Position numbers and translations under genes: made by a program. A stretch of DNA of 48,388 nucleotides from positions 1-48,388 of the forward strand of contig JAGVPM010000127.1 in NCBI GenBank assembly GCA_020052235.1. Direction: 5' to 3'. Shown here in pieces: positions 13,287 through 40,521 of the stretch (positions are counted from its first letter, which is position 1; every line of letters starts with the position of its first letter). The notes under the pieces are model-generated. The model had not been told where the DNA came from. It saw only the letters and a program-made list of their open reading frames with translations, and made no database searches. Source of the DNA: Candidatus Goldiibacteriota bacterium (GTDB taxonomy: Bacteria > Oederibacteriota > JAAXVQ01).

Positions 13287-14471
13287 ATGTTTAGAACGTC
13301 GATCATTGCTTTGACGCTGGGCATGATGCTGATAAGTGCTTGTGCCACGACGCATGCCAAGCGCAAAGGTGCGTTTTATCCCGCGCGTATTCCGGCTTCT
13401 TCGGAAACTCAGCGTTTGGCCAATGTCCGGGTGGCGTTGTTCCAATCCATCCCGCGCCTGCGGGTTGCGTCGAAAGAACCGGTGAAAATTTATGACATGA
13501 ACACCCGGTCGATGATGGCGGATTCGGTTTTAAAAGAAGAGAGCCAATTGACTCCCCGGAATCAGCATTTTATGCTGAACGGGCAAACCCTGCTGGCGCA
13601 AAAAATTCGTTTGGTTCCGGCGGAAAAAGATTTTATTAAATGCAATGGGCAGCGTTTTCGGGGGCAAATTGAGGTGAGTTGCAATGCCCGAGGGGGATTG
13701 CTGGTAGTGAATTTTGTGCCGCTTGAAGAATACGTAAAAGGCGTGGTGCCCAATGAAGTCCAGGGCAATTGGCCCTTGGAAGCATTGAAAGCGCAAGCCG
13801 TGGCCGCGCGCACATTCACCTTGTCGCGCATGGGTTCATCCGCGAATGCGGAATTCGACGTTGAGGCCAATACCAACAGCCAGGTTTACCGGGGAATGGA
13901 TTCGGAACGGGAGGCCACCAACCAGGCCGTCGAGGGTACGGCCCATTTGGCCGCAACCTATCAGGGCCGGTTTATTTCAGCTTTTTACCATTCCAATTGC
14001 GGGGGGCATACGGCGGACGTAAGGAACGTTTGGGGCAATGATATTGTTTACCTTAAGGGCGTTGCTTGCGGTTTTTGCGATGACAGTCCGCATTACAACT
14101 GGTCTTTAACACTTTCCTTAAAGGAGATCACCAATTTACTTTCGCAGCGCAATATTGAATTCATCCGCAGCATTGAAGTCATGGGCCGCTTGCCCGACAA
14201 CCGGGTTTTAAGCCTGGAGATTGTGCACGGAGGCGGCAAAGAGATTATGAAAGCCCCAGCGTTCCGGATGCTGCTCGGTCCCGAACGGTTGAAAAGCACG
14301 AATTTTGAAATTACACCCAATGCCAAGTCGCTGGTATTCAAAGGCAAAGGCTGGGGGCACGGCGTGGGTTTATGCCAGGAAGGCGCTTATGGCATGGCGC
14401 GCGCCGGATATGGATTCAGTGAGATTTTAGAATATTATTATCCTGGGATTGAAATTAAGTTTTTGGAATGA
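13287..14471 (+). CDS. SpoIID/LytB-type peptidoglycan lytic transglycosylase, lipoprotein
   Basis: A 394-residue protein from the ATG at 13287, chosen because AAAGGA lies 8 bases upstream and a lipoprotein signal follows (hydrophobic segment then LISAC, lipidation at about Cys20). The longer frame from 13176 overlaps the helicase gene and adds an unlikely N-terminus. The SpoIID signature is clear: VPLEEYVKGVVPNEV, LKAQAVAARTF, SAFYHSNCGGHTADV, WGNDIVYLKGV and the C-terminal GKGWGHGVGLCQEGAYGMA. SpoIID cleaves glycan strands without stem peptides. In a double-membraned bacterium the role is likely wall remodelling or division, not sporulation. The stop overlaps queA (ATGA). Confidence 0.93.
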   Translation: MFRTSIIALTLGMMLISACATTHAKRKGAFYPARIPASSETQRLANVRVALFQSIPRLRVASKEPVKIYDMNTRSMMADSVLKEESQLTPRNQHFMLNGQTLLAQKIRLVPAEKDFIKCNGQRFRGQIEVSCNARGGLLVVNFVPLEEYVKGVVPNEVQGNWPLEALKAQAVAARTFTLSRMGSSANAEFDVEANTNSQVYRGMDSEREATNQAVEGTAHLAATYQGRFISAFYHSNCGGHTADVRNVWGNDIVYLKGVACGFCDDSPHYNWSLTLSLKEITNLLSQRNIEFIRSIEVMGRLPDNRVLSLEIVHGGGKEIMKAPAFRMLLGPERLKSTNFEITPNAKSLVFKGKGWGHGVGLCQEGAYGMARAGYGFSEILEYYYPGIEIKFLE

Positions 14472-15514
14472 GCGCGCCTATGTTGGCCAAAGATTTTTCC
14501 TTTCAGTTGCCGCCTGAATTAATCGCGCAAATTCCGCGGCGACGGGGATTTTCCCGCTTGTTGGTCGTGCCTCAAGAAAAACAGCAGCCCCTGGTCCATA
14601 CCATGATCCGTTCCTTGCCCGGACAGTTGGAGCCCGGGGATTGCCTGGTGGTGAACAATTCCAAAGTCATTCCCGCCCGCTTGCGGGCCATCAAGCAGCC
14701 CACCGGTGCGCGCATGGAAATATTGCTTCATCGCGAACTCTCACCCGGGACGTGGGAAGCGTTGGTGCGTCCTTACCGGCGGGTAAAATCCGGCATGGTA
14801 TTGCGGGTGGGAAGCGGCGATATCCGCGTGGCCGGGCTTTGCGGCGAAGGCCGGATTGTGGTGGATTTCGGATCGCGCCGGATCGCCCAGCGGATTATGC
14901 GCCAGCATGGCGAACCGCCCTTGCCGCCCTATATCCGCCGGAGCGGCCGGACCGATTGGCAAGCCGACCGCCGGCGGTACCAAACGCTATTTGCCCATCC
15001 GCCGGGATCGGTTGCGGCGCCTACGGCAGGGCTGCATTTTTCAGCAGGGCTTTTAAAGCAGTTGCAGGCACGCGGAGTGAACATAGTAACCATCACTCTC
15101 CATGTCGGTTGGGGCACGTTTTCACCGCTCCCCGAAGGGGATCTGACCGGCCGCTCCCTGCATCCGGAGCGGTATTTTATTCCCAAGGAAACTGTGGCTG
15201 CGATTGCCCGCTGCCATGCAGAGCAAAAACGCGTCATCGCATGCGGCACTACCGTGACACGCGCTTTGGAAGCGGCGGCACTGAGTCCGGGGAACCTGCA
15301 TGCCGGAGAGGGCGAAACCGGGATTTTCATTCAGCCCGGCTATCGCTGGAAAATCATCGATGGATTGCTGACCAATTTTCACCTGCCGGAATCGTCCTTA
15401 TTTATGCTGGTGTGCGCCCGGGGAGGGAAACAACGCATTTTGCAGGCCTATCAGGAAGCGATCAGCCAAAAATATCATTTTTATAGTTACGGAGATGCGA
15501 TGCTTTTGTTATGA
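14468..15514 (+). CDS. queA: S-adenosylmethionine:tRNA ribosyltransferase-isomerase
   Basis: A 348-residue QueA of full family length. It transfers and isomerises the ribosyl group of SAM onto preQ1-modified tRNA to give epoxyqueuosine. Family blocks seen: FSFQLPPELIAQIP at the N-terminus, DCLVVNNSKVIPARL, PPLPPYIRR, VAAPTAGLHFSAGLL, TLHVGWGTFSP, VIACGTTVTRALE and LLTNFHLPESSLFMLV. It is translationally coupled to the SpoIID gene by ATGA. The other tRNA enzyme of the pathway, tgt, lies about 15 kb downstream instead of next to it as in many bacteria. Confidence 0.97.
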   Translation: MSAPMLAKDFSFQLPPELIAQIPRRRGFSRLLVVPQEKQQPLVHTMIRSLPGQLEPGDCLVVNNSKVIPARLRAIKQPTGARMEILLHRELSPGTWEALVRPYRRVKSGMVLRVGSGDIRVAGLCGEGRIVVDFGSRRIAQRIMRQHGEPPLPPYIRRSGRTDWQADRRRYQTLFAHPPGSVAAPTAGLHFSAGLLKQLQARGVNIVTITLHVGWGTFSPLPEGDLTGRSLHPERYFIPKETVAAIARCHAEQKRVIACGTTVTRALEAAALSPGNLHAGEGETGIFIQPGYRWKIIDGLLTNFHLPESSLFMLVCARGGKQRILQAYQEAISQKYHFYSYGDAMLLL

Positions 15515-15566: not shown

Positions 15567-17657
15567 ATGAGCCCTAAACTATTGTTAACCTTTTTCAACA
15601 CCATTGAAACGCAGCGGGCCTCTCTATTGGAAGTATTATCTCAAACCCCGGAACGCACCGGGGCGCTGTCGGCCCGCAAAAAAAACTATCTGAATAATTT
15701 TAAAAAGCATGCGCAGGTCATTTTTGAAGTTTTTTTCCCCCCGCAATGCGACTTGAGCCGGAAAGGCTGGAATGAATCCGCCCGCCGCAGGCAAATTCTG
15801 AACATTCAAAAAATCACCGATACGTCACTGGGATTTGAAGTGCTCTGGGACATCATGCGCGAGGTCCGCAGCCTGATTCACGGCCATATCGAAATCCGCA
15901 GCCTGATTCACGGGCATGTTGAAAATGAGGCTGCGAAATCCCAGCGGGTTACGCTGCATGAAGCCTGGGAAACACTGTGGCTTCAGGGTGTGGCGGAAGC
16001 CGTCAAGGCTTATTTGCAGAAACGCGACAAGGCCTTGCGGGAAAAAAGCATGGAAAGTTCGATTCTGTTTCATACGCTGCAAAGCCTTTCGGCAGAGCCG
16101 GATTTGGACACCCTGTTGCACAAAGTTGTGGCGCAGGCGGCCGCACTTATGCATGCCAAACAAGTGTATCTGTTTTGGGCCGAGGAATTTGTAAACGGGA
16201 CCGTGAAACAACACCGGTTGCAATTGAAAGCGACCAATCATTCGGGAACGGCCTACGGAGAATACCTGATCGGTTTTGGGGATGGGCCGATCGGGAAAGC
16301 GGCGGAAACGCGCCAGCCCTTGATCGTGGATGATTATCAAGGCGTTTCTGAAAAGATACCTTTTTTATCCGATGTGGATCAAATGCTGATCGTGCCGATT
16401 GTTTATTCGGAAGATGTGTTGGGGGTTTTGGTTACGGCCGATACCCGGAAACGCCGCCGGTTTGTTGCCTCGGACCAGGAATTGTTGATGATTTTTATGA
16501 ATCAGATTGCCGCGATGCTGAAAACGGTCATACTGTATCAACGGCAGGCGGATATTGCCGCGGTGATGGAAGAAAAAAACCGTATTCTTGAATCCCAGGC
16601 GGATGTGATTTTGCGCAAAAAAGCGCAATTGGAAGTTATGAATGAAGTGGGCCAACAGATTAATTCCTCCCTGGATCTGCCCGAGGTATTGTCGCTTTTA
16701 ACCCGGCATGCGGCGGAAAGCATTGGCGTGAACCGCAGCGTGGTTTGGCTGATGAATGAAAAGAAAACAGGCTTGGACGCGGTCGCGGCGTATGGTTTCC
16801 CTCAAGGGCTGCTCAGCCAGGTTTCGCTGTTTCTGCCGGATATGCGCAAGACGAGATTTTTTCAGGCTTTGTTTGAACGCCATGCGGTTGAAATTTCCGA
16901 AGGCCAGGATACGGAATTTTTCCAGAAAAAATTGCAGGCGTTAACCAATATCCAGTCATTGCTGGTGGTGCCCTTGCTTTTGAAACAGCATGCGGTGGGG
17001 TTGCTCTCGGTGGATGATACCCGCGAAAAACACGAGTTTTTGGAGGATGAAGTCACCTTGGTTTCGGCCGTTGCCAATCAGGCGATTTTGGCCATAGAAA
17101 ACGCCCGCCTGCATCAACAGGTTAAGGAACAAGCCATTACGGATGTGATGACCGGTTTGTTTAATCACCGCTACTTTCAGCTGCGGTTTACGGAGGAATT
17201 TTCGAATTCCAAACGGTACGGCAACGCGCTTTCCGTTATCATGATGGACATCGATCATTTTAAGCACTACAACGACACCTATGGCCATATTGCCGGTGAT
17301 TTGGCCCTGAAAGAAATCGCGCAGTTAACCAAAGTGTCGATGCGCGAGAATGATATTTTAGCCCGGTACGGCGGGGAAGAGTTCGTTATTATTTTACCCA
17401 TGACCAATTTGGAAGGCGCTCAGGTAGTCGCCGAACGCATCCGCAGCGGGGTGCAGGAATGCAAATTTTTGGGTGATTTCAATCTTCCGCAAGTCAGCAT
17501 TACCGTCTCGTTGGGCGTTTCCACGTATTCCGCCTCGCATAATAAAAGTGAAATACTCCTGCGTGAAGCCGATACGGCCCTTTATCAAGCCAAAGAAGGC
17601 GGCAGGAATCGGGTAGTTATTTATAACCCCGGCATGCCTGAGGAATCACAAGTGTAG
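15567..17657 (+). CDS. Cytoplasmic diguanylate cyclase with two GAF domains
   Basis: A 696-residue protein with no membrane segment. Order: an N-terminal helical region (1-160), GAF domain (about 170-320), coiled coil (about 325-355), second GAF (about 360-510), GGDEF domain (about 520-690). The active site reads RYGGEEF, an accepted variant of GGDEF, and an intact RxxD inhibitory site (REND) lies five residues before it, so product inhibition is expected. The metal-binding MDIDHFKHYND block is present. It makes cyclic di-GMP from GTP in response to ligands of the GAF domains. A 30-base tandem duplication sits in the N-terminal region. A PilZ effector gene lies further along the window. Confidence 0.95.
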   Translation: MSPKLLLTFFNTIETQRASLLEVLSQTPERTGALSARKKNYLNNFKKHAQVIFEVFFPPQCDLSRKGWNESARRRQILNIQKITDTSLGFEVLWDIMREVRSLIHGHIEIRSLIHGHVENEAAKSQRVTLHEAWETLWLQGVAEAVKAYLQKRDKALREKSMESSILFHTLQSLSAEPDLDTLLHKVVAQAAALMHAKQVYLFWAEEFVNGTVKQHRLQLKATNHSGTAYGEYLIGFGDGPIGKAAETRQPLIVDDYQGVSEKIPFLSDVDQMLIVPIVYSEDVLGVLVTADTRKRRRFVASDQELLMIFMNQIAAMLKTVILYQRQADIAAVMEEKNRILESQADVILRKKAQLEVMNEVGQQINSSLDLPEVLSLLTRHAAESIGVNRSVVWLMNEKKTGLDAVAAYGFPQGLLSQVSLFLPDMRKTRFFQALFERHAVEISEGQDTEFFQKKLQALTNIQSLLVVPLLLKQHAVGLLSVDDTREKHEFLEDEVTLVSAVANQAILAIENARLHQQVKEQAITDVMTGLFNHRYFQLRFTEEFSNSKRYGNALSVIMMDIDHFKHYNDTYGHIAGDLALKEIAQLTKVSMRENDILARYGGEEFVIILPMTNLEGAQVVAERIRSGVQECKFLGDFNLPQVSITVSLGVSTYSASHNKSEILLREADTALYQAKEGGRNRVVIYNPGMPEESQV
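15866..15925 (+). repeat. 30-base tandem duplication inside the diguanylate cyclase gene
   Basis: CCGCAGCCTGATTCACGG recurs exactly 30 bases apart (15866 and 15896). The encoded peptide repeats RSLIHGH twice in a row. The second copy has diverged slightly at its 3' end (GGCATGTTGAA against GCCATATCGAA), so the duplication is not brand new. Confidence 0.85.
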
Positions 17658-17713: not shown

Positions 17714-19003
17714 ATGAAAAAATGGCTGGGCATAATATTGTTGCTGGGTTTGCCCTTGATAAGTTGGGCCGATGTAAATAACTATGGCGCGGAATCCGAT
17801 TTGCGGCAAGGCGCAGGGGCGCGAGCCGGCGGGATGGGCGGGGCTTTCATCGCCTTGGCGGACGATGCTACTGCCGGATATTGGAATCCTGCCGGTTTAT
17901 CCCAAATGGAATTAGAAATTTATCAAGCCGCTTTTCAGCATGGTCTTTTAACCAATAATGCCAGCACGAGTTTTTTAAGTTATGCTTTTTTATGGCCGAA
18001 TGTTGGGGAGTTTTCAATTTCCTGGTTTAATTTTTATATTGGCAATATTGAAACTCGGGATGAAAACGGAAATATTCTTGGGCAAGTTAGCGTTGCCGAA
18101 AACGCATTTTTAATCAGTTATGGACGCAAAGCGTATGAGTTATATGAGGGACTAAGCCTAGGCGCAAGTTTAAAAGTAATTCAGCAAAGCAGTGGTGATT
18201 TTTCAGCGTTGGGGCCCGGGTTGGATTTGGGGATTTTATGGCAACCTATACTTTATTGGGACCATACCGTGGGTTTAACCGCGCAAAATCTTTTCCAAGG
18301 GTTATATTGGAATAGTGGAACATATGATTCATCCGCCGTTTCGGTTAATGTGGGCGCGGCTTTTAAATTTTTTCGCTCTAAAGAAGAACTCTATTTCAAT
18401 CACCTTATTCAAACTATAGACTTAAATATTTTCGAATATTCCCGTTTAGAATTTCGGGCTGGGGTTGAATGTTGGCTTACACGGAATTTTGGCTTGCGCG
18501 CGGGATACAATAGCCAGGAAGTTACAGCCGGGGCGTCGTACCGGCCTGAAAATTTTGAAATTGATTATGCGTTTCATTATGGTTTGACGGAATTGTCCAA
18601 CAATCAGCACCGGATTTCGCTGCTGTTGCGTTTCAAATCCGCCCCACTACCGCCCGCTGAGCGCGCGGGGATGCCGGAACTAAAGGAAACCTTGGAGCCG
18701 GAAGTCGCCGTGTATGAGGATTCCACGCCGCATGATGATGCCAATGCACCTAAAATTGCAGCCAAAGTCTTGGAAATCCAGCGCGTTGGGGGAAAAGCTT
18801 ATAAAGTTATTTTGAACGTGGGCGCCAACCAGGGGATTAAACGGGGTTACCAAGGTTCGCTGGTGGATGCCGGAGGCCAGACTATGGCGGGTATTATCGT
18901 ACAGCAAGTTGATCCGAAATTGTGTTTGGCTGAAATTGCCGGGGTGGCGAAAGATGTTCCGAATGACGCGACGGCGATTATTCGATTGCCGGTAAGAAAA
19001 TAG
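17714..19003 (+). CDS. PorV/UPF0164-family outer-membrane protein with extra C-terminal domain
   Basis: A 429-residue protein with a signal peptide cleaved near WADV (residue 20). The mature start carries the family hallmark: GARAGGMGGAFIALADDATAGYWNPAGL. Barrel strands fill residues 25-305. Residues 325-429 form a separate domain (QRVGGKAYKVILNVGANQGIKRGYQGSLV...) resembling small periplasmic OB-like domains that follow such barrels; its role is unclear. PorV proteins in Bacteroidota shuttle cargo of the type IX secretion system. Here the next gene encodes a large surface protein with a sorting-like C-terminal domain, which fits a cargo-shuttle role. No other secretion-system component is in the window. 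Confidence 0.88.
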   Translation: MKKWLGIILLLGLPLISWADVNNYGAESDLRQGAGARAGGMGGAFIALADDATAGYWNPAGLSQMELEIYQAAFQHGLLTNNASTSFLSYAFLWPNVGEFSISWFNFYIGNIETRDENGNILGQVSVAENAFLISYGRKAYELYEGLSLGASLKVIQQSSGDFSALGPGLDLGILWQPILYWDHTVGLTAQNLFQGLYWNSGTYDSSAVSVNVGAAFKFFRSKEELYFNHLIQTIDLNIFEYSRLEFRAGVECWLTRNFGLRAGYNSQEVTAGASYRPENFEIDYAFHYGLTELSNNQHRISLLLRFKSAPLPPAERAGMPELKETLEPEVAVYEDSTPHDDANAPKIAAKVLEIQRVGGKAYKVILNVGANQGIKRGYQGSLVDAGGQTMAGIIVQQVDPKLCLAEIAGVAKDVPNDATAIIRLPVRK

Positions 19004-19149
19004 AAAGACTGGTTTGTTATTGGATAACCTCAGGCTGTTGTAGTGAATTTATTGAGTAAGGATTTAGATAAAAGCACGGAAGCCAGGATATAAAAACTGT
19101 TCGAGACTGAATCGTCATTTGTATGGAATTTAAGCGGGATGGTAACGTC

Positions 19150-21936
19150 ATGAAATTGATTAAATTCGGGATTGTGATCTGTAGCCTGCTAACATTAAGC
19201 CAATGGAGCTGGGGTGACTGGATTCAGGATGGCGGGAGTATTAGTAATAATACAAACCCCGCATTGTATTACCCGAGCATTGCTTCTAACAACAATATAC
19301 CCTATGTCTCTTGGCAGGAACCTGACGGGGCATACCAAATATATGTAAAACATTTTTCCGGAAATACATGGGTACAAGATGCCGGTAGTTTAAATATTAA
19401 TACAACCTCAAACGGAGGTGGCCCCAAAATTGCGTTTGTCGGAACGACGCCTTATGTTGCTTGGACGGAGTATGCTTCAGTTTGGCGAATTTATGTAAAA
19501 CATTATAATGGCTCAAATTGGTTGAGTGACGGAAGCGGAAGTTTGAATATTAATGATAATTATTACGGTATTGATCCTTCAATTGCAATTCTTGGCAGCG
19601 TCCCTTATGTTACCTGGAGCGAGCGCAATGCGTCGGGAAAATTTCAGATCTATGTAAAACATCTATCCGGAACCACATGGATTCAAGATGGGTTAGAGTT
19701 GAATATCGATACGGCCCAAGAGGCCAGGGCACCCGATATTTCCTGTTCGGCAACGGCCCCCTATGTTGCTTGGTATGAAACCAAAGCTGGAACCAACCAA
19801 ATTAATGTAAAACATTTTAATGGAGCAGCTTGGATTGCGGACGGAGCGAGCCTGAATAATAATGCTCTGAAGAGCGCCCAATATCCAAGCTTGATGATGT
19901 CTGCTAATATTCCATATGTTGCGTTTCAAGAACAAAATTTATCGGATGTGTGGCAAGTTTACGTAAAATGTTTTAATGGGACGTCGTGGATTCAGTTAGG
20001 GAATGCTTTAAACAACCTTACGGCACAAAATGCCCAATATCCAAGGATTGCATTTGCGGGTGCAATTCCCTATGTTACCTGGATTGAGAGCGTGGGGAAC
20101 ACTGTTGATATAGTATATGTAAAGCATTTTGATGCCGGATCGAATCAATGGGTGGCGGACGGTGATTCTTTAAATTTAGATTCCACAAAAAATGCCCAAA
20201 CACCTCGAATTGCAATAAATAATCAAACGCCTTATGTTGTCTGGCAAGAAACAAATGTTTCGGGTGGCGAACAATTCTATGTAAAGCACATTGCGGACTC
20301 AACTCCTTCGGTTTTTTCTTGTTATCCGAAAAACGCAGTAAAAGATAACGTCCTCCCGAATGTACTCATTGAAGGATATAATTTAAATGCCCCCGTGGCA
20401 GTGAAGTTAATCCGTACGGATAATGCGGCGAGTATCGTTAACGGCTTTAACATTGTGAGAAAAAAGGGGACGGTTCTTAGTTGCGGATTTGACCTTACTA
20501 ATGCCGCACCGGGTTTTTATAATGTCCAAGTCGAAAGTGGTACGTTGAAAGGTGTTTTAAAACGTGGTTTTTTAATTCAAGAACGAGGGGTTTTACCTGC
20601 TCAATGGGCGATAACCGATATTGGCAATGTAACGAAATCAGCAGCGGCCGGATCATTGTGCGGTATTTCAGTGGAAGATGGGGATAATGATGGCGTGCAG
20701 GAGCTTTTCTTAGCCAATCGAAATCCGACTTTGTTCCGGGCAAAAAAAATGGCTGGTGGTTGGAGTATATCAGCCGTGGGGCAAGAAACTGTGGGGGAAT
20801 TGTACCTTGATACCTTGATTTGTGATCCTGCCAATAACGGTATGCTTAAAGTCTATGGAACGACATCAAATAGTTATCTTTACCAATACAGCGGAATAAC
20901 ACTGGATAAATCGAATTTTGGAACTTCAGTTAGTCCAGGGTATCGTTTGTGTATTGGCGATGGATTTAATGACGGTTGGTTTAAAATTTTTATGGCTGCG
21001 GGGAATGGCCATATTTATCAATTTCCTCAAAATGGCAACCAGAATAAGGATGATCTTTTGGCGGGCGTAGGCACTATGAATCCAATGAATAGCGTTGCAG
21101 TGGGGGATGGGAATTTAGATGGCGGTTTTGAAGTTTATGGTGCTTCATCGGATCACAGTATTTACCAATTTGTTTTCAATGGAACGGCTTGGGATAAAAC
21201 GGTAGTTGGTGCTGGAGGTGGTGAAATGTACGCTGTTACTTTGGCGGACATTGACAACGATGGAGGCATGGAAGTGTATGGCGCAAATGAAGATGGCGCT
21301 ATTTATCAGTTTAAATGGGGCTTTTCCGCATGGCAAAAGAATCAAGTTGGAACGTGTGGCGGAAAACTATTTGATCTGACCATAAACGACGGAGATAATA
21401 CCGGCGCGGTGGGAATATATGCCGCTTGCGCAGATGGACATGTTTATCAATTTAAACCTTCGGGTACTCAATGGATAAAAATGGATTTAAGCGGAACTTC
21501 GACACCCTTATATAAAATTGCCGCCGGAGATGGCGATAATGATAATTTGGTTGAAATATACGCCATTGGCGATAATGGGCATGTTTTTCAATTTAAAATG
21601 GCGGCGATTTTGAATCCCACCCCAACGCCAATTCCTGATTTCCGTGGTCAGATTATTTCTGCCAATTATGTTTTTTGCGCCCCCAATCCTGCTCGTGGAT
21701 CGTTCGCGAATCTGAATATTTTCACTCAGCAACCTGCGCATATTGATGTGAAAATATTCACTCCCGGCAGCCAATTGGTTTTTTCCTTTACGCGTGATTA
21801 CGCGGATATTGGAAAACATATAGAACGGATTGATCTCCATGACTTGGCCAATGGAGTTTATTTTATCTTAGTAAAAGCAAGAAATGAACAAGGTGCGGAA
21901 GAAAAAGTTACCTACAAAATGATATGGATAAAATGA
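19150..21936 (+). CDS. Giant secreted protein with two seven-bladed beta-propellers and a sorting-like C-terminal domain
   Basis: A 928-residue protein from the ATG at 19150, chosen because a signal peptide follows at once (cleavage near SWG). Residues 20-400 hold exactly seven repeats of about 52 residues built as W-x2-DG-x-SLN ... PxIA ... PYVxWxE ... IYVKHFNG. An IPT/TIG-like domain follows (about 400-490). A second set of seven repeats carries acidic turns such as DGDNDG ... EVYGA ... IYQF (about 495-820), like FG-GAP/VCBS blades that bind calcium. After a Pro/Thr linker (NPTPTPIP) comes a domain starting CAPNPARG and ending GVYFILVKARN, resembling type IX sorting or FlgD-Ig domains. A surface-exposed binding protein is likely; the ligand is unknown. 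Confidence 0.85.
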   Translation: MKLIKFGIVICSLLTLSQWSWGDWIQDGGSISNNTNPALYYPSIASNNNIPYVSWQEPDGAYQIYVKHFSGNTWVQDAGSLNINTTSNGGGPKIAFVGTTPYVAWTEYASVWRIYVKHYNGSNWLSDGSGSLNINDNYYGIDPSIAILGSVPYVTWSERNASGKFQIYVKHLSGTTWIQDGLELNIDTAQEARAPDISCSATAPYVAWYETKAGTNQINVKHFNGAAWIADGASLNNNALKSAQYPSLMMSANIPYVAFQEQNLSDVWQVYVKCFNGTSWIQLGNALNNLTAQNAQYPRIAFAGAIPYVTWIESVGNTVDIVYVKHFDAGSNQWVADGDSLNLDSTKNAQTPRIAINNQTPYVVWQETNVSGGEQFYVKHIADSTPSVFSCYPKNAVKDNVLPNVLIEGYNLNAPVAVKLIRTDNAASIVNGFNIVRKKGTVLSCGFDLTNAAPGFYNVQVESGTLKGVLKRGFLIQERGVLPAQWAITDIGNVTKSAAAGSLCGISVEDGDNDGVQELFLANRNPTLFRAKKMAGGWSISAVGQETVGELYLDTLICDPANNGMLKVYGTTSNSYLYQYSGITLDKSNFGTSVSPGYRLCIGDGFNDGWFKIFMAAGNGHIYQFPQNGNQNKDDLLAGVGTMNPMNSVAVGDGNLDGGFEVYGASSDHSIYQFVFNGTAWDKTVVGAGGGEMYAVTLADIDNDGGMEVYGANEDGAIYQFKWGFSAWQKNQVGTCGGKLFDLTINDGDNTGAVGIYAACADGHVYQFKPSGTQWIKMDLSGTSTPLYKIAAGDGDNDNLVEIYAIGDNGHVFQFKMAAILNPTPTPIPDFRGQIISANYVFCAPNPARGSFANLNIFTQQPAHIDVKIFTPGSQLVFSFTRDYADIGKHIERIDLHDLANGVYFILVKARNEQGAEEKVTYKMIWIK

Positions 21937-21964
21937 ATATAAGATACAGTACTGGGAGCTATAA

Positions 21965-24553
21965 TTGGGAAACGATAAATTAAGCCCATATAAAGGATAT
22001 ATTAATGCCGGTTTTATAGCGGCCGCAGCGATATTTTTCTTTTTTAAAGGTGATTATTTTACGGGGATTTTGGCCGGTATAATTGCTTGGTTTAGTTGGC
22101 AATCGAGGTTTTATTTTAATCGGGAAAATACCTGGATTGAATGCGTGGTTTTAACTGGAATGGTTGTTGTGTTTTTAGGAGTGGCTGCAAACATTCCAGG
22201 TGCCTTAAAACCAACAATTTTAATTTCGAATTTATCCGTTCCTTTTCTTCTAATAGCAAGCATATTATGGTTTTATCCACGGATTTATTCACAGTTCCGG
22301 CAGGGAAATGTTCAGCAAACCTTGCTGCCCATTAAACAGCGGGAATTGTATAGCGATGGGCTGGTAGTTTTGATATTTGTTTTTCTGATTTTGAAAAGTG
22401 CTTGGGTGGTTGATGATGCGTTTATCACATTTAGAACAATTGATAATTTTATTCATGGACTAGGTTTGGTGTGGAACACGGGTGACCGTGTGCAAGCTTA
22501 TACGCACCCATTGTGGCTTTTTGTTATAGCGGTTGCTTATTTCGTTACTCACGAAGCATATTATACATGCATTGTTTTCGGCTTGGTTTGCACCGTGATA
22601 GCCGTGATTTTAGCTAAACGGATATCGGAAACGGCTGGGACCGGTCATTATTCTTGGCTGCTGGGTATTTCACTTCTGAGTTTTTCTAAAGCTTTTATTG
22701 ATTATTCGACTTCGGGGCTGGAAAATCCGCTAATCTATTTTTTAATGGCAATGTTTTTCTTTTTCTATTTCCGTCCTGTCCAAACGTCTAAAACGATATT
22801 TTTACTTTCCGTAATAACTGCATTGGGAACATTAACGCGGATGGATGCGTTCTTGTTTTTTGCCATACCCCTTTGCCATGCGATGTGGACTGCCTATGCC
22901 GCCGAAGGACGAAAAGTATTTGGACTATTTTTGAAGGGATTTATTCCTTTTTTTGTGTGGGAGGCATTTTCGGTATTTTATTATGGGTTCCCATTTCCGA
23001 ATACCGCATATGCCAAATTAAACACTGGAATATCCACGTTACTTTTAATCCAGCAAGGCATGAAATATTTGGTCCATTCTTTGCGGATTGATCCGGTCAC
23101 CCTAACGATGATAACCGCTGGTTTAATCATTGCATTTATTCAGCGCAAACCGAAACCTCGTATGCTCGCGTTGGGCGTGCTTTGTTATTTGCTTTATGTG
23201 ATCTCAATCGGCGGGGATTCGATGAGCGGTCGTTTTTTAGCGGCGCCTTTTTTCGGTATGGTGTTGGTAATGATGTATTCCATTACATTAACACCTCGTT
23301 CAAGTGCTTGGATGATTATTCCCATGCTGGGTTTAATGCTGATATCGCCCGCCAATCCTTGGCGCGCCGATGCGTTTTATGATCGAACCCGTACGGCGAT
23401 TGATGCGGTGAATGATATTGATGACACTCGTGGCGGGTATTATCAGTCCACGGGTTTGTTTAGGGCCTCGGCAACGCAAAATCATGTCGGTATAGCCCGG
23501 GGGCAAGAGCTTAAAGAACAGGATGTGCCGGTATTCGTATATTCGATTATTGGGTATTTGGGGTATTACGCGGGACCGCGCGTATATATTGTGGATATTT
23601 GGGCTTTGGCCGATCCCCTATTAGCACGGTTGCCATGCGCTGCTTGGGGCTGGCGAATTGGCCATTTCATGCGCGCGCTGCCAACTGGGTATATTGAAAC
23701 GATTCAAAATCATAGGCTGGAATTTAAAGATGAAAATCTTGCGCTGTATTATGAAAAATTAAAAATAATCACCCAAGGTGAATTGTTTGGTTTTGAACGG
23801 CTTAAAACTATTGTGCTTATGAATTTGGGCTTTTACGAAAAATATATTGATCAAAAATTTTATAAAAATAGCGTGCCGGAGCAAGCAGTGCGTAATCTTG
23901 TCCCGGCCGTGGAATTTTTAATTCCGGCAAAAGACCGGTGCCCATATGCCGACTTAGTCAACCAAGGAATGGTTGCTGCGCAACTGGATGATTGGAATCG
24001 AGCTACGGGTTTATGGCAAAACGCCAAACAATTAAATCCGGCTAGAGTGGAAGCAGTTGCCAATTTGGGTGTTTATTATGAGAGAATTGGAAATAGTGAT
24101 GCGGCCTTGGAGGCATATAAGGTTGTTGCGGAAAAAATAGGATTACCGTGGAGCCAATATTGTGAACAATTAAAAGTGAATTTGATTTCGGAAAATAATT
24201 TGCCCACGCCAGTGATTCCAAAGAAAAACAGTGCGCCTCAATCAGAAACGAAAAGAATATTGGCAATGGCGCAAGATAAGAGCGCGTATGCAGAGTTGAA
24301 TAATTTGGGGGTTAAAGCCTTGATGCAACGCCAGGTGGAGGATGCAAGGCGAATTTGGTCTCAGGCAGAAGCACTCGATCCTTCGCGGCCGGAAGCTAAA
24401 GCGAATCTTGGGGTTTGGAATGAGCATGCTGGAAATTTTCCGTTGGCGTTAGAGGAATATAAATTTGCCGCACGGAAACTGGGCGAACCTTGGGATCGAT
24501 ATTATAATCAAGTGAAAGAACGAATTAAACGAAATGGGCCAAACAATCATTGA
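21965..24553 (+). CDS. GT-C fold membrane glycosyltransferase with C-terminal TPR modules
   Basis: An 862-residue protein starting at TTG 21965, 7 bases after GGGAG. About 10-12 membrane segments fill residues 10-480. The first large loop has VDDAFITFRTIDNF...GLVWNTGDRVQAYTHPLW, the acidic signature of polytopic GT-C enzymes related to AftB-like arabinosyltransferases, which use lipid-phosphate sugars. Residues 650-862 hold two copies of an approximately 100-residue TPR module (LGVYYERIGNSDAALEAYK and LGVWNEHAGNFPLALEEYK). It follows the double-propeller gene by 28 bases, so glycosylation of that protein or of a related envelope polymer is plausible. Sugar and acceptor are unknown. Confidence 0.82.
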   Translation: MGNDKLSPYKGYINAGFIAAAAIFFFFKGDYFTGILAGIIAWFSWQSRFYFNRENTWIECVVLTGMVVVFLGVAANIPGALKPTILISNLSVPFLLIASILWFYPRIYSQFRQGNVQQTLLPIKQRELYSDGLVVLIFVFLILKSAWVVDDAFITFRTIDNFIHGLGLVWNTGDRVQAYTHPLWLFVIAVAYFVTHEAYYTCIVFGLVCTVIAVILAKRISETAGTGHYSWLLGISLLSFSKAFIDYSTSGLENPLIYFLMAMFFFFYFRPVQTSKTIFLLSVITALGTLTRMDAFLFFAIPLCHAMWTAYAAEGRKVFGLFLKGFIPFFVWEAFSVFYYGFPFPNTAYAKLNTGISTLLLIQQGMKYLVHSLRIDPVTLTMITAGLIIAFIQRKPKPRMLALGVLCYLLYVISIGGDSMSGRFLAAPFFGMVLVMMYSITLTPRSSAWMIIPMLGLMLISPANPWRADAFYDRTRTAIDAVNDIDDTRGGYYQSTGLFRASATQNHVGIARGQELKEQDVPVFVYSIIGYLGYYAGPRVYIVDIWALADPLLARLPCAAWGWRIGHFMRALPTGYIETIQNHRLEFKDENLALYYEKLKIITQGELFGFERLKTIVLMNLGFYEKYIDQKFYKNSVPEQAVRNLVPAVEFLIPAKDRCPYADLVNQGMVAAQLDDWNRATGLWQNAKQLNPARVEAVANLGVYYERIGNSDAALEAYKVVAEKIGLPWSQYCEQLKVNLISENNLPTPVIPKKNSAPQSETKRILAMAQDKSAYAELNNLGVKALMQRQVEDARRIWSQAEALDPSRPEAKANLGVWNEHAGNFPLALEEYKFAARKLGEPWDRYYNQVKERIKRNGPNNH

Positions 24554-24656: not shown

Positions 24657-24740
24657 GGCAGAGTAAAAGGCTTGCTGAGGGATTTAAGCCAGTGTTATAA
24701 TGATACGTTTTATACCCCATTTTCGAGCGAGGTGGCAGCC

Positions 24741-26579
24741 TTGACAACACCGAGACTTAAAACCGGCGTAACCGGTTTGGATGAATTATTGCTGGGTGGT
24801 TTTTTGGAAGGGGAAAGTATTTTGGTGGAAGGCTTGCCGGGCACGGGGAAAACCACCTTGGGCCTGCATTTTATTCTTCAAGGCATCGCCGATGGGCAGC
24901 CTGGAATTGTAATCACCTTTGAGGAATTTCCCGCGCAATATTACCGCGATGCGCTCAATTTTGGCTGGGATTTAAGGCAGTTGGAAAAAGACGGGCGCTT
25001 GCGCATCATTATGACCTCGCCGGAGGTTCTGCGCGGTGAAATGGAACGGCCGGGAGGCATGTTTGACCGTTTGACGCATGAATTGGGCGCCCGCCGGGTT
25101 CTGGTGGATTCAATCAACTTCCTGCATAAAATTAAAGATGAAGCCGGCACGCAGCGGGAACTGATTAATCATTTCATCAGCGGCTTCAAGCGCCAGGGGA
25201 TCACCAGCTTTTTAATCAAAGACATCGAAGGCGAGCACATCTCCCATTGGGGCATGTATTCCGTGGATTGCTATATCCGCCTGACGTTTGAATTGTTCCG
25301 CGATTACCAGCGGCGCCGGCTGATTGAAGTGTTTAAGGCGCGCGGTCAAAAACACATTTATGGCCAGCATCCGTTTGAAATAACCGAAGAAGGGGTTGAG
25401 ATTTATCCCACCTCGCTGCCGACGCCCATTTCAGTGGCCACCAAAGATACGGGCCAGGAAATACGCCGGATCAACAGCGGGGTTGCGGGACTGGATGAAA
25501 TGCTGGGTGGCGGTTTTTTCAGCGGGCAAACCATCCTGGTGGCGGGAACCTCCGGAACCGGAAAAACCAATCTGGCGCTGCACTTTTTGGCCCGCGGGCT
25601 GGAAAACGGCGAAACGTGCCTGTATTTTTCCCTGGAGGAGCAAGGCGGGAATTTATTGCGCCATGCCCGTTCCTTAGGTCTGGATTTATCCGGGTCGGTT
25701 CAGGATGAAAGATTGGTGGTGTTGAATGTTCCCGGAGCGGGCATCAGCGAAGGTGAATTTTTACACCTGTTGCGGCGTTACATCAATGAAGTGCGCCCGC
25801 AGCGTTTGGTGATTGATCCCATTTCATTTTTGAACAATATCGCAGCTTCGCCGGGAACGGCGCATATTACCTTCCAGACCATGGTCCGGATATTGCGCAA
25901 CGCGGGAGTAACGACGCTATGCACTTCCGAAATTCCTGAAATGGTGTGGGAATTCAAACTGAGCGATTCCAATTTGTCCTACTTGGTGGATACGGTCATT
26001 TTATTGCGTTTGGTGGAAATTGAAACCACCATCCGCAAAGCCATCATGATTATCAAGCAACGCGGTTCCAGCCATGACCGCAATTTGCGTGAATTGCTGA
26101 TTGACAACCAAGGCGTCCGCATCGGCGAACCGTTTTTAAGCCATGAGGGGATTTTGACCGGCATGACCCGCCGCCGTTCTGGCAGGGAGCCGAATAAAAT
26201 TTTAATCGTCGATGACGATCCCCGCATGGTGGAACTGATTAAAGCCAGTTTTCGGGATGAACGTTTTGTATTGGTGGATTGCGGCGACGGTGAATCCGCT
26301 CTGCGCATGAGTGTGATGGAAGAACCGGATTTAATCATTTTGGATTTGATGCTGCCGAAGTTAAACGGGTTTGAAGTTTGCCAAAAATTGAAAGCGGAAC
26401 CGGGGACCGCCGATATTCCCGTCATTATGCTTTCCGCAAAAGGAGAAACGGAATCCAAAGTCCAAAGCATGAATTTAGGGGCGGATGACTATATGACCAA
26501 ACCGTTTTCTCCCTTGGAACTGGTGGCGCGCGTAAAAATGATTCTCAGGCGGTCGTACGGCAAGAGGAAACATGAATGA
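24741..26579 (+). CDS. Tandem KaiC-domain ATPase fused to a response-regulator receiver
   Basis: A 612-residue protein from TTG 24741, favoured because GAGGTGG lies 5 bases upstream and KaiC homology starts directly; a TTG at 24672 would add 23 residues. KaiC domain 1 (about 1-240) has GLPGTGKTT (31-39), the catalytic pair Glu61-Glu62 and VLVDS. Domain 2 (about 245-480) has GTSGTGKTN (269-277), Glu299-Glu300 and LVIDP. At the KaiC phosphosite the sequence is NLSYLVDT: Ser413 is kept, but the neighbouring Thr is Tyr414. A receiver follows (about 490-612) with IVDDD, phospho-acceptor Asp535 and the final Lys of MTKPF. No kaiA or kaiB is nearby. The next two genes are histidine kinases, likely phosphodonors for the receiver. 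Confidence 0.93.
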   Translation: MTTPRLKTGVTGLDELLLGGFLEGESILVEGLPGTGKTTLGLHFILQGIADGQPGIVITFEEFPAQYYRDALNFGWDLRQLEKDGRLRIIMTSPEVLRGEMERPGGMFDRLTHELGARRVLVDSINFLHKIKDEAGTQRELINHFISGFKRQGITSFLIKDIEGEHISHWGMYSVDCYIRLTFELFRDYQRRRLIEVFKARGQKHIYGQHPFEITEEGVEIYPTSLPTPISVATKDTGQEIRRINSGVAGLDEMLGGGFFSGQTILVAGTSGTGKTNLALHFLARGLENGETCLYFSLEEQGGNLLRHARSLGLDLSGSVQDERLVVLNVPGAGISEGEFLHLLRRYINEVRPQRLVIDPISFLNNIAASPGTAHITFQTMVRILRNAGVTTLCTSEIPEMVWEFKLSDSNLSYLVDTVILLRLVEIETTIRKAIMIIKQRGSSHDRNLRELLIDNQGVRIGEPFLSHEGILTGMTRRRSGREPNKILIVDDDPRMVELIKASFRDERFVLVDCGDGESALRMSVMEEPDLIILDLMLPKLNGFEVCQKLKAEPGTADIPVIMLSAKGETESKVQSMNLGADDYMTKPFSPLELVARVKMILRRSYGKRKHE

Positions 26580-28618
26580 TGCGCCTGCCTGAGTTGGTTT
26601 TAAAGGTTTCCCTCGCTCTGGTTTTCCTGCTGGTCGTTGCCAACCATGGTTTTTCACTTGAACGCCCCAATCGGCTGCGCGTCGGCGGTCCTTTGGCATT
26701 TGCCCCCTATGCTTATTTGGATGGAACCTATACGGGGTTTTCCGCGGATGTGGTGCAGGCCTTGGGTCAAAATTTGGCCATTGACAATGTTTTGTTCTAT
26801 CCCGCCACGCCCGGCGAAAATTGGCGCGCGTTGTCGGAAAACGAAGTGGATTGTTTGCATTGCATCCGGTATACGCCGTCGTTAAGCGCCACTTATATTT
26901 GGGCGGGAAGTTACTTGGATACCGCCTCGATGATATTTGTGCTAAACTCGTGTTTTGACATTTCACGTTTGCGCGATTTAAACGGGAAACGGGTGGCGGT
27001 GCTGGGCGATGATGCGGCCTACGAACGTTTCAAGAGCCTGCCGGATATTCAAGTGGTGCTGGTGGATTCCTTGGAAAAAGGCCTGGAGTATTTGCGTTCC
27101 GGCCGGGTGGACGCGTATGCCGGGGAGCGGTTGAGTACCCTGCGCTATTTAGGCGAGCATAAAAAACAAGCGCAGATTAAAATGATCGGTTCGGAAGTGG
27201 CGCACGCGCATTACGGATTGGTGGTTAAGAAGAACAAAGCTGCGCTGGCGCGGCGCCTCATTCAGGCGCTAAAGGATATGGAAACCTCCGGAGAACGGGA
27301 ACGGATTTTCCGGCAATGGTTCGGGGAAGAAATTCAGCCCCAAACGCCCTTATCGCGCCGGGTCATCCGTTGGGTTTTTGTTTTTGTGGGAGGCTCGTTG
27401 TTGGTGGCCATGATCGTGCTGGGCTGGAATCTGCTGCTGCAGCGTGAATTGGAACTAAAGGCGATTGCCGTTGAAAAAGCGCACCTGGATCAGGCCATTG
27501 CCGAGGAAAAAGGGCGTTTTGAAGCCATTGTACAATCCATGACCGAAGGGTTGATGCTGGTGGATCCCCAAGGCCGCATTGCTTTTGTTAATGCCCGGGG
27601 CGCGCAATACTTGGGACGGCAGATCGATGACTTGCTGGGAAAACCGTTGTCGGCCTTAAAGGAATATTTATTGGGAGTCGTCAAGGACCCGGAATTGCTT
27701 ACCCGTAAATTGGAACACGCCGAGAGTTATCCGACCCGGCCGAACGTGATTGAATACCATATTGTTACTACGCGGCGTACGGACATGCGCTTGAAAGTAT
27801 TCCCGGTGAGCGATCCCAAGGGGGAATTTGCCGGGCGGGGTGTTTTAATCGAGGATATGACCCACGAACGCGAGATTGAACGCATTAAATCGGAATTTGT
27901 TTCCATCGCCAGCCACGAGTTGCGGACGCCCATGACCAGCATCCTGGGGTTTTCCGAGATTATACTTACCCAGGAATTGCCGGCGGAATTGGGACGGCGG
28001 TACACCGAACAAATCCATAAAGAAGCGGAGCGGTTGACCCGGATTCTTAACGATATGCTGGATATCAGTTACCTGGAAAGCGGCGAAGGCATATTGGATA
28101 AAAAACAAATCAAGATATCCGGGTTGGTTCAGGATGTGGTGAATGCGTTTCACGCCCAATTAAAGGACCGGCGCGAAATTCATATTGCGGTTCAATCCCA
28201 GGTGGAAACTCTGCCTGGGGACCGGGACAAATTGACGCAGGTACTGTGGAATTTGCTCTCCAATGCGGATAAATATTCTCTGCCCGGAAAAGAGATACGG
28301 ATCGAAATCGCACAGCATGAAACCTTAAATCCCCAATGGGAAATTCCGGCGGATGAGAGCGAAAATTTATTGCCGTTGCTGGAAATACGCGTAGTCGATT
28401 TTGGGCAGGGAATTCCGGCGGATCAATTATCCCTGATTTTTATTCCGTTTCACCGCGTTGAGACCGCGGTGCATACGATTCGGGGAACAGGGTTGGGTTT
28501 GGCGATCGTCAAACGCATTGTGGAAGCGCACGGAGGAAGGGTGTGGGCCTGGAGTGAATTGGGACAGCAAACCGTTTTTACGGTGCTGCTGCCCATCCGG
28601 CCCCAGCCTGTACTCTAA
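26576..28618 (+). CDS. Membrane histidine kinase with periplasmic solute-binding sensor domain
   Basis: A 680-residue sensor kinase, translationally coupled to the KaiC-receiver gene (ATGA). Order: signal/anchor (8-25), periplasmic type 3 solute-binding domain (about 32-255, with LRVGGPLAFAPYAYLDG and GFSADVVQAL), membrane segment (about 263-285), short coiled coil, PAS (about 300-420), HisKA with ASHELRTPMTSI (His447, Glu448), and HATPase with NLLSNADKYS, DFGQGIPADQ and GTGLGLAIV. The sensor domain should bind an amino acid or similar small molecule. The normal H-box predicts full autokinase activity. The REC domain of the preceding gene is the obvious target. Confidence 0.94.
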   Translation: MMRLPELVLKVSLALVFLLVVANHGFSLERPNRLRVGGPLAFAPYAYLDGTYTGFSADVVQALGQNLAIDNVLFYPATPGENWRALSENEVDCLHCIRYTPSLSATYIWAGSYLDTASMIFVLNSCFDISRLRDLNGKRVAVLGDDAAYERFKSLPDIQVVLVDSLEKGLEYLRSGRVDAYAGERLSTLRYLGEHKKQAQIKMIGSEVAHAHYGLVVKKNKAALARRLIQALKDMETSGERERIFRQWFGEEIQPQTPLSRRVIRWVFVFVGGSLLVAMIVLGWNLLLQRELELKAIAVEKAHLDQAIAEEKGRFEAIVQSMTEGLMLVDPQGRIAFVNARGAQYLGRQIDDLLGKPLSALKEYLLGVVKDPELLTRKLEHAESYPTRPNVIEYHIVTTRRTDMRLKVFPVSDPKGEFAGRGVLIEDMTHEREIERIKSEFVSIASHELRTPMTSILGFSEIILTQELPAELGRRYTEQIHKEAERLTRILNDMLDISYLESGEGILDKKQIKISGLVQDVVNAFHAQLKDRREIHIAVQSQVETLPGDRDKLTQVLWNLLSNADKYSLPGKEIRIEIAQHETLNPQWEIPADESENLLPLLEIRVVDFGQGIPADQLSLIFIPFHRVETAVHTIRGTGLGLAIVKRIVEAHGGRVWAWSELGQQTVFTVLLPIRPQPVL

Positions 28619-28630
28619 GAGGGGGGTGTC

Positions 28631-30808
28631 ATGCTAAGGCTGATTACTTTTTTAGATCAACATCTGAATGATATGATCGCCGAAATGATAGGCGAATATG
28701 AAAAGAAGCTGGCGCGCTATCGCAGTGCGTCCCTGAGTGAAAAAGAAAATGTCCGCGAGGTAACCCGGCATAATTTACAGTTCATGCTGGAGTATTTTAA
28801 GGGAAAAAATGTTGAGCTGGATAAGTTTACCGCCGCCCTGGCGGAATTGGGCGAAAAACGCGCGCGGCAGGGGTTTCCCTTGGACGAATTATTGGAAACG
28901 TTCCACATTGCGCGCGCGGTTATTTATCGTTTTGTGAAAAAAGGATTTCAGAAAAATCGTGATTTACAGGTACGCCATTTGCTTGAATTTGACATGTTGC
29001 TGGGTGATTTATTCAACCGCATTGATTCCGGGGTCGCCAAGCCGTATTTGCAATTTCAAGAGAACATTATTCAAGCCCAGCAATCGTTTTTAAAGCATAA
29101 ATTTTCGAGTTTGTTCAAATTGGTGGAGGCGATTTCCAATAATTTGAACATTCAGGAGTTTTGTGAAATTCTTTTGGATTATTTGTGCCGGTTTTATGAC
29201 GTGAAAGTGTCGGCGATTTATTTAATGGATGAACGCAACCGGGAACTGTATCCGCAGCATGCCACCGGTTTGTCCCGGCGTTTTTTACGGGAACAGCGTT
29301 TTTCGATTACCGCCCAACCTTTTAAACAATGCTTGGACATTGGGCACGTCATAAGTTTATCCGACACCCCGTTTCATATGGATGATTTAATGATCCCGGT
29401 TCCGGAATTGGGAAAAAAAGAAAAACCGAATAACGCTGCCATGAAGAAAAACATCAAGAAAACGGAACCCAAAACCCCGGACACGCACCCGGGCTTTTCT
29501 TCCATTTACGCGCCTATGATTGGGCGGCAAAGAACCTACGGCGTGGTATCCCTGCATGCCTTGGAGATGAGGCGTTATTCCCAGATTGAATTGCAACAAC
29601 TGGAAACCTTGGCGCGCATTGTCGCCATTGCCCTGGAAAATGCCCGCTTTTACGATAATTTAATTGAAGAAAAAGGAAAGCTGGATGCCATTATTAATTC
29701 GGTGTCCGATGGTTTGATCCTGACTAATTTTCATGAGGAAATCGTTTTTATTAACGAACAAGCCGCTCATTATCTCCATGTACCGGCGCCCAAATTGGTG
29801 GGCGCTTCCGCTTCCTTGATTCCGGAGCGCCTGCTGGAAAATGCCAAGGAACCGCAAAGCATTCAAGCGGCGTATTTGCGCGCTTTGATGAACATCGTTG
29901 ATCATCCGGTGTTGGAATTTACATTATACCGTCCGGATGTGACGGACATCCGGCTGACTATGTTTCCGGTCAAGGATCGCGACCAGCGGTTTATCGGGCG
30001 CGGGTTGATCATAGAAGACATAAGCCGCGAAAAAGAAATCAACCGCATGAAATCGGAATTTGTGGCTATTGCCAGCCACACCATGCGCACGCCCATGACC
30101 AGCATTTTGGGTTTTGCCAGCTTGCTGGTGGAGCGCCAATTGCACGAATCCATTCAAACCAAATATCTCCAGAATATTTACCGGGAATCGCAGCGTTTGA
30201 TGAACATACTCAATGACATGCTTGATTTGGCCAACATTGAGGCAGGTAAGATTTCGTTAAAGTTGATGACCGTGGATGTGGCCAAGCTCGCGGCTGATGT
30301 GGTGCAGGAACTGCAGAAAAAAAACAAGCGTGCGTTGACCGTAAAATGTGCCGCTAAAATTCCCAAGATTATTGTGGATCCGGAAAAAATGCGGCAAATA
30401 TTCCAAAATTTATTGCAAAATTCACTGAAATATACTGAAGGAGCCATTCAGCTCAATATTACTCAATGGTTGGCGCCGAGGTTTAGGAATGGCTGGCATC
30501 GTTCCCATGTGATCCTGGATTCACCCGGATATTTTCCGGCGTTGGCCATCAGCCTGGAGGATCAGGGCGAAGGGATTCCGGCAGATCAATTGGATGATAT
30601 TTTCGAACCGTTCCATCGGGTTGAAAATGAAAAAACGCAAAAAATTTCCGGTTCGGGATTGGGGTTGACCATTGTGCGCTATTTGGTGGAAGCCCATGGC
30701 GGGAAGATTTGGGTGGAGATAAAATCAGGCAAGGGTAGTGTTTTTACGTTTATTCTTCCGCTTGAATTAACCCGGCCGGACCGGGATTTGGGCCGTTTGG
30801 CCAGTTAA
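28631..30808 (+). CDS. Cytoplasmic histidine kinase with RsbRD-like N-terminus, GAF and PAS domains
   Basis: A 725-residue soluble kinase starting 12 bases after the previous gene, with a strong GAGGGGGG ribosome site. The N-terminus (about 10-140) resembles the RsbRD_N helical domain: GFPLDELLETFHIARAVIYR. A GAF domain follows (about 160-335, with a Lys/Pro-rich insert near 260-290), then PAS (about 345-460), HisKA and HATPase (NLLQNSLKYT, EDQGEGIPADQ, GSGLGLTIV). The H-box reads ASHTMRTPMTSI: His483 is present, but the adjacent acidic residue is Thr484. That residue normally acts as the base in autophosphorylation, so activity may be reduced or biased. It probably integrates an internal signal with the membrane kinase upstream. 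Confidence 0.93.
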   Translation: MLRLITFLDQHLNDMIAEMIGEYEKKLARYRSASLSEKENVREVTRHNLQFMLEYFKGKNVELDKFTAALAELGEKRARQGFPLDELLETFHIARAVIYRFVKKGFQKNRDLQVRHLLEFDMLLGDLFNRIDSGVAKPYLQFQENIIQAQQSFLKHKFSSLFKLVEAISNNLNIQEFCEILLDYLCRFYDVKVSAIYLMDERNRELYPQHATGLSRRFLREQRFSITAQPFKQCLDIGHVISLSDTPFHMDDLMIPVPELGKKEKPNNAAMKKNIKKTEPKTPDTHPGFSSIYAPMIGRQRTYGVVSLHALEMRRYSQIELQQLETLARIVAIALENARFYDNLIEEKGKLDAIINSVSDGLILTNFHEEIVFINEQAAHYLHVPAPKLVGASASLIPERLLENAKEPQSIQAAYLRALMNIVDHPVLEFTLYRPDVTDIRLTMFPVKDRDQRFIGRGLIIEDISREKEINRMKSEFVAIASHTMRTPMTSILGFASLLVERQLHESIQTKYLQNIYRESQRLMNILNDMLDLANIEAGKISLKLMTVDVAKLAADVVQELQKKNKRALTVKCAAKIPKIIVDPEKMRQIFQNLLQNSLKYTEGAIQLNITQWLAPRFRNGWHRSHVILDSPGYFPALAISLEDQGEGIPADQLDDIFEPFHRVENEKTQKISGSGLGLTIVRYLVEAHGGKIWVEIKSGKGSVFTFILPLELTRPDRDLGRLAS

Positions 30809-31945
<1,137 letters not shown>

Positions 31946-40423: not shown

Positions 40424-40521
40424 ATTGCAAATTATTGTATGGGAACGAATCCATTATTCCCGCATTAATCGTAGTATCCCCTCCACAATCAAATGGAGAA
40501 CCTGCCGAGAGGAGACAGAGC

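Follow-up and report, generated by a model that had tools for sequence, protein, structure and literature searches.

What does a KaiC ATPase do when a receiver domain is fused to its C-terminus? The question is raised by a locus of a Candidatus Goldiibacteriota bacterium (assembly GCA_020052235.1). The DNA analysed, hereafter the window, is the whole 48,388-nucleotide (nt) contig JAGVPM010000127.1 of a 3.17 Mb draft genome that is 99% complete. One of its genes encodes two KaiC domains (CI and CII) and a receiver (KaiC-KaiC-REC, hereafter KaiC-REC), and is followed by genes for two histidine kinases, HK1 and HK2. KaiC relatives are widespread in bacteria without clock partners, with roles that are mostly open; in KaiC-REC the input is built into the protein: the KaiC, whose catalytic motifs are intact, carries a canonical receiver, and kinases are encoded alongside. 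Judging from sequence comparison, we give an even chance to a two-component system in which the tandem KaiC ATPase is the response regulator, HK1 the donor, and HK2 the phosphatase, with the KaiC ring acting through protein contacts.

Pairing of KaiC-REC with the two kinases

The cassette was compared across 8 genomes of the order (source genome included) and 37 other genomes of the phylum. The order kaiC-REC, HK1, HK2, whose conservation had been proposed as a check, was kept in 8/8 genomes of the order (the genes span two contigs in G001, G003, and G005), and full-length KaiC-REC was found in 0/37 of the others. In all genomes measured, the kaiC and HK1 genes overlapped (1-22 nt) and short gaps separated HK1 from HK2. 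In the window, a 4-nt overlap and the Pfam domains bore out the original prediction of a KaiC-KaiC-REC gene overlapping that of a membrane kinase with a solute-binding sensor; the two KaiC domains together scored 317 bits, and the receiver matched Response_reg at 99 bits. The soluble RsbRD-GAF-PAS kinase predicted after 12 bases was found at that distance with clear matches to GAF, PAS, HisKA, and HATPase_c, but its RsbRD label was weak (20.7 bits, below the curated cut-off of 24.3) and fell on the least conserved part of HK2. The TTG start of KaiC-REC at 24741 had a ribosome-site match, AGGTGG at 24730-24735, five bases upstream, and full-length orthologs started at the same position or a few residues away.

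Within the cassette, constraint was strongest on KaiC-REC. Its identity between the two families was 73-75%, versus 52-60% for the kinases, and it had the lowest nonsynonymous divergence (dN) of the cassette when compared with G001 of the same genus (0.10 for KaiC and 0.07 for the receiver; 0.25 for HK1, 0.19 for HK2, and 0.17 for the flanking tgt). The ratio to synonymous divergence (dN/dS) was about 0.05 for KaiC and 0.03 for the receiver, with dS near saturation at about 2.

Neither the window nor any orthologous locus contained another receiver, as had been stated for this locus, and none of the orthologous operons showed a separate dedicated response regulator; elsewhere the genome carried at least 20 other receivers and at least 35 kinases, as counted by searches. 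HK1 and HK2 shared 39% identity over 390 residues and were reciprocal nearest kinases in the genome (177 bits versus 115 for the next). Because each is the other's closest kinase, a shared target, KaiC-REC, is likely, and the pair is most simply read as an old duplication with one target in common. Moreover, the classes matched, both kinases being PhoR/PnpS-type and the receiver PhoB-type. The cassette thus resembles PhoR/PnpS-PhoB systems in its kinase and receiver classes and differs in that an N-terminal KaiC ATPase replaces the DNA-binding output. Since KaiC-REC is the only adjacent receiver, the kinases are sisters, and the gene order is kept throughout the order, KaiC-REC is very probably the response regulator of HK1 and HK2.

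Residue invariance was read from an alignment of 7 orthologous sequences. Both Walker A motifs and the CI catalytic Glu pair E61/E62 were invariant, with the second CII Glu replaced by Asp in two orthologs; KaiC-REC therefore has the tandem KaiC/RecA domains, Walker A motifs, and catalytic Glu pair of the KaiC ATPase family. The receiver residues D491, D492, D535, S565, and K587 were likewise invariant and make up the full response-regulator set, and Asp535 occupied the phospho-acceptor position that had been assigned to it. The alignment of KaiC-REC to solved KaiC stopped at about residue 485, and the receiver began about ten residues past the end of the CII ring, at the position of the A-loop and KaiA-binding tail that clock KaiC carries after CII, a tail of established role. 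Because the receiver sits at this position, its phosphorylation would probably alter CII ATPase activity or ring assembly.

Kinase and phosphatase residues of HK1 and HK2

HK1 read HELRT in 8/8 genomes, with the H-box, N, G1, and G2 motifs present in the orthologs. It thus carries both the H-E/D-x-x-T/N motif and the ATP-binding boxes of a bifunctional HisKA kinase. From its anatomy HK1 would sense a periplasmic cue through the solute-binding domain, and we infer that it phosphorylates the receiver at Asp535. The original prediction had an external nutrient signal and an internal signal converging on KaiC. The periplasmic solute-binding anatomy supports an external signal, whereas the nutrient was a guess. 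The Arg of the TPxR motif is the usual carboxylate binder of amino-acid binding proteins; read by eye against this motif, the HK1 position reads TPSL, with no conserved Arg among the orthologs, so the carboxylate-binding residue is apparently missing. A plain amino acid is an unlikely ligand.

In HK2, the corresponding motif was HTMRT or HSMRS in 8/8 genomes. The residue after the phospho-accepting His (H+1) was Thr or Ser, the acid was lost, and the H+4 hydroxyl was kept, so that HK2 departs from the H-E/D-x-x-T/N motif in every genome while retaining its ATP-binding boxes. Among the 15 kinases of the genome with a readable H-box, HK2 was the only one without E/D beside the His; the other 14 include HK1. 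In the HisKA kinases CrdS, HK1190, HK4262, and HK853, Ala at the H+1 acid position abolished kinase activity, and the Thr/Asn three residues past that acid, but not the acid itself, was needed for phosphatase activity (PMC3510030). Since HK2 lacks the H+1 acid and keeps the phosphatase Thr/Ser, it is best read as an opposing phosphatase, and is probably a phosphatase opposing HK1 rather than a second donor. The earlier view of the KaiC receiver as the phospho-acceptor of both kinases thus divides: the only receiver beside them, their sister relationship, and the 8/8 gene order favour a common partner, but the missing H+1 acid speaks against HK2 as a donor. HK2 may read an internal cue through its GAF and PAS domains and most likely strips phosphate from the receiver, as suggested by the residues kept in all eight genomes. 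Its conserved loss of a kinase residue would make HK1 and HK2 a natural kinase/phosphatase pair on a single target.

KaiC relatives and their partners

The searches for KaiC domains took in roughly 1,160 different genomes; in the three large sets, 19, 182, and 42 genomes had tandem KaiC above the cut-off. No fused receiver was present on other KaiC genes in the loci read, the remaining loci being judged by frame length only, which falls short of proof. A contig scan with the full KaiC-REC protein returned receiver-domain matches from unrelated regulators and no named organism with the fusion. The genes next to kaiC encoded kinases, a lone receiver (G172), hybrid kinases, or GGDEF proteins. Related KaiCs lay beside the lone receiver in G172 and beside a kinase in G231, G086, G768, G770, and G774; GGDEF proteins adjoined unrelated KaiCs in G104 and G245 and lay near one in G248. 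On plasmids, kaiC overlapped a kinase gene in Variovorax, overlapped in Agrobacterium C58 a kinase gene that starts with a receiver-like domain, and was followed by a lone response regulator in Novosphingobium. In the phylum of G105 (L237-L265), most kaiC genes read adjoined a histidine kinase gene, often overlapping it. Compared with these pairs, to which Sphingobium plasmids also belong, the cassette likewise has KaiC adjoining a kinase, and Agrobacterium and Novosphingobium have a receiver in the next gene. The loci read differ in having no fused receiver and usually one kinase, instead of two sister kinases.

The iKaiC-REC proteins of Methanosarcinaceae, 9 proteins in 6 genera, have a KaiC domain described as inactivated (PMC5847659). 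Compared by that description, with no archaeal sequence aligned, they share with KaiC-REC a KaiC-family ATPase with a C-terminal receiver and a narrow phyletic range. However, they are archaeal and their ATPase is inactivated, whereas KaiC-REC is bacterial, is locked to two kinases, and retains its catalytic residues (Walker A in both domains and the CI Glu pair). Widespread kaiC-kinase pairs and archaeal KaiC-REC fusions were known before, and KaiC-REC is a variant of such systems. No bacterial KaiC-REC fusion was found in the open literature searched; a key archaeal KaiC paper lay outside that search, and absence from the literature is thus not established.

In a tree of 33 KaiCs, the KaiC-REC proteins formed one clade (100/100), which grouped with KaiCs of the G172, G231, and G768 type (91/95, moderate support) apart from those of cyanobacterial type. 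Some branches of this tree are long and its deep joins are unsure, and the cyanobacterial label of G366's phylum was inferred from the frequency of kaiC there.

Fragment matches to KaiC elsewhere in the phylum, in G016, G008, and G028, were rejected because they come from other proteins: one KaiC-like and 469 aa long, one with a single KaiC domain, and one of the KaiC-SBP-AraC type. In family f3 of the same phylum, proteins of 700-760 aa combined an N-terminal KaiC with an SBP_bac_1 sugar-binding-type domain (L206:1899-4001, plus strand; L207:142-2400, minus strand), and that of L207 ended with an AraC helix-turn-helix. In G008 and G028, additional KaiC-like matches fall in frames of 735-762 aa, which may be more copies.

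Ring output, alternative readings, and flanking genes

Once set by the two kinases, the KaiC ring would act through protein contacts. The account of the locus given in the original prediction missed a conserved diguanylate cyclase upstream, which is a candidate output. This cyclase was the gene directly upstream of kaiC-REC in G001, G002, G003, G004, and G007, and followed queA on another contig in G006. Its GGEEF motif and I-site were present in the window and five relatives, with GGEEL in G002. The cyclase is the most likely partner of the ring, leading to a cyclic di-GMP (c-di-GMP) output, and this is the weakest step of the mechanism. One speculative extension, which we regard as rather improbable, is a switch made of four genes. 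HK1 and HK2, the latter a dedicated anti-kinase, would carry the external and internal sensors, respectively, and control the phosphorylation state of a KaiC ring, which would drive the cyclase by direct contact; if true, it would be a KaiC hub wired to c-di-GMP, not to time. Whether receiver phosphorylation sets KaiC ATPase activity or assembly, and what the ring targets, become testable questions.

Several points weigh against the proposed mechanism. The phosphatase residue of HK2 is Ser, not Thr/Asn, in the two g2 genomes, and a residue motif does not prove HK2 kinase-dead. Cross-talk is possible with the many other receivers and kinases of the genome. The cyclase lies 7 kb from kaiC in the source genome and may be a mere neighbour, and in vitro work on cyanobacterial KaiC showed no consistent direct effect of c-di-GMP (PMC13001216).

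Were HK1 and HK2 both donors to Asp535, external and internal cues would add on one KaiC hexamer. The sister relationship of the kinases, the lack of another receiver nearby, and the ATP-binding boxes of HK2 fit this arrangement, but it is unlikely given the Thr/Ser that replaces the H+1 acid of HK2 in all eight genomes, at the very position where Ala killed kinase activity in four HisKA kinases and on which phosphatase activity does not depend (PMC3510030). The direction of signalling could also be reversed, with the nucleotide or ring state of KaiC gating HK1 and HK2, the receiver serving as a feedback brake or phosphate sink, and the output regulator encoded elsewhere. Clock KaiC gates SasA, a kinase with a KaiB-like sensor domain; pairs of KaiC and kinase genes without a fused receiver are common, and the genome has other receivers to spare. 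We consider this reversal quite doubtful, as Pfam found no KaiB-like sensor domain in HK1 or HK2, KaiB was not above the cut-off, and the receiver shows the same degree of constraint as the ATPase. It is very unlikely that HK1 and HK2 serve a distant regulator while another kinase phosphorylates KaiC-REC, the cassette being a co-inherited island between queA and tgt. The abundance of kinases and receivers and the nesting within an otherwise housekeeping region would allow it, whereas the gene overlaps, the short gaps between the kinases, the co-presence in 8/8 genomes, and the lack of a lone receiver in the cassette oppose it.

A circadian or hourglass clock without KaiB is hardly credible. 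KaiC-REC does share with cyanobacterial clock KaiC the tandem RecA-like rings, one alignment of about 480 residues, and the same catalytic framework with intact CI ATPase motifs. However, KaiB (PF07689) was above the cut-off in 0/8 genomes of the order, in line with the predicted absence of kaiB; kaiA was not searched for. The clock pair S431/T432 aligned with S413/Y414 in the window, and the orthologs had either Y413/Y414 or, with two residues deleted, an Asn preceding the Tyr, so that the CII phosphosites are not conserved. The receiver, moreover, replaces the KaiA-binding tail. The clock reading was therefore rejected on the absence of KaiB above the cut-off, the missing phosphosites, and the separation of the KaiC-REC clade from cyanobacterial KaiC, and the earlier judgement that this is probably not a circadian clock holds.

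The features of the locus are listed in the table. The three genes between cyclase and kaiC, which include two with links to type IX secretion, were missing from this interval in G001, G002, G003, G004, and G007. On the right flank, G002 has a 4-nt overlap between HK2 and tgt. Elsewhere in the phylum, queA and tgt were direct neighbours (about 45 nt) in two genomes, G009 and G015, and lay 1-3.6 kb apart without cassette genes in family f8. Because queA and tgt are adjacent, or spaced without cassette genes, in other genomes of the phylum, the comparison suggests that the signalling block is an order-specific arrival, inserted between them into an older operon. No RNA element or riboswitch was above the gathering score in the window, and the promoter-like sites upstream of kaiC were consensus matches only.

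Table. Features of the kaiC-REC locus and its flanks (window positions; aa, amino acids; TM, transmembrane segment; T9SS, type IX secretion system).
Feature	Position	Strand	Details
queA	14468..15514	+	Left flank; PRK00147 398 bits; synteny
GAF-GAF-GGDEF diguanylate cyclase	15567..17657	+	GGEEF, RxxD I-site; Pfam, synteny, motif
Three genes	17714..24553	+	PorV-like; T9SS cargo with Por_Secre_tail; 862-aa membrane/TPR protein; between cyclase and kaiC
KaiC-REC	24741..26579	+	612 aa, TTG start; Pfam ATPase/KaiC and Response_reg
KaiC-REC, CI ATPase	~24753-25424		
KaiC-REC, CII ATPase	~25467-26165		
KaiC-REC, REC	26193-26549		
KaiC-REC, Asp535 codon	26343-26345	+	Phospho-acceptor
HK1	26576..28618	+	680 aa; Pfam; overlaps KaiC-REC gene by 4 nt
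HK1, N-terminal half	SBP_bac_3 26675-27328; PAS ~27515-27871		Signal/TM; periplasmic SBP_bac_3 (7e-15); TM; PAS
HK1, C-terminal half	H447 27914-27916; HATPase_c 28217-28600		HisKA with H447 in SHELRTP; HATPase_c
HK2	28631..30808	+	725 aa; soluble; 12 nt after HK1; Pfam
HK2, domains	GAF 29144-29638; PAS 29708-30025; HATPase_c 30377-30766		Weak RsbRD_N-like N-terminus
HK2, HisKA	30077-30082		H483 and Thr484 in SHTMRTP
tgt	30821..31945	+	Right flank, 12 nt after HK2; Pfam TGT 487 bits

Elsewhere in the window, positions 40435-44231 encode a NADH-binding diaphorase-like subunit and a [FeFe] hydrogenase large subunit, followed by a radical SAM gene, and look like a bifurcating hydrogenase cluster.

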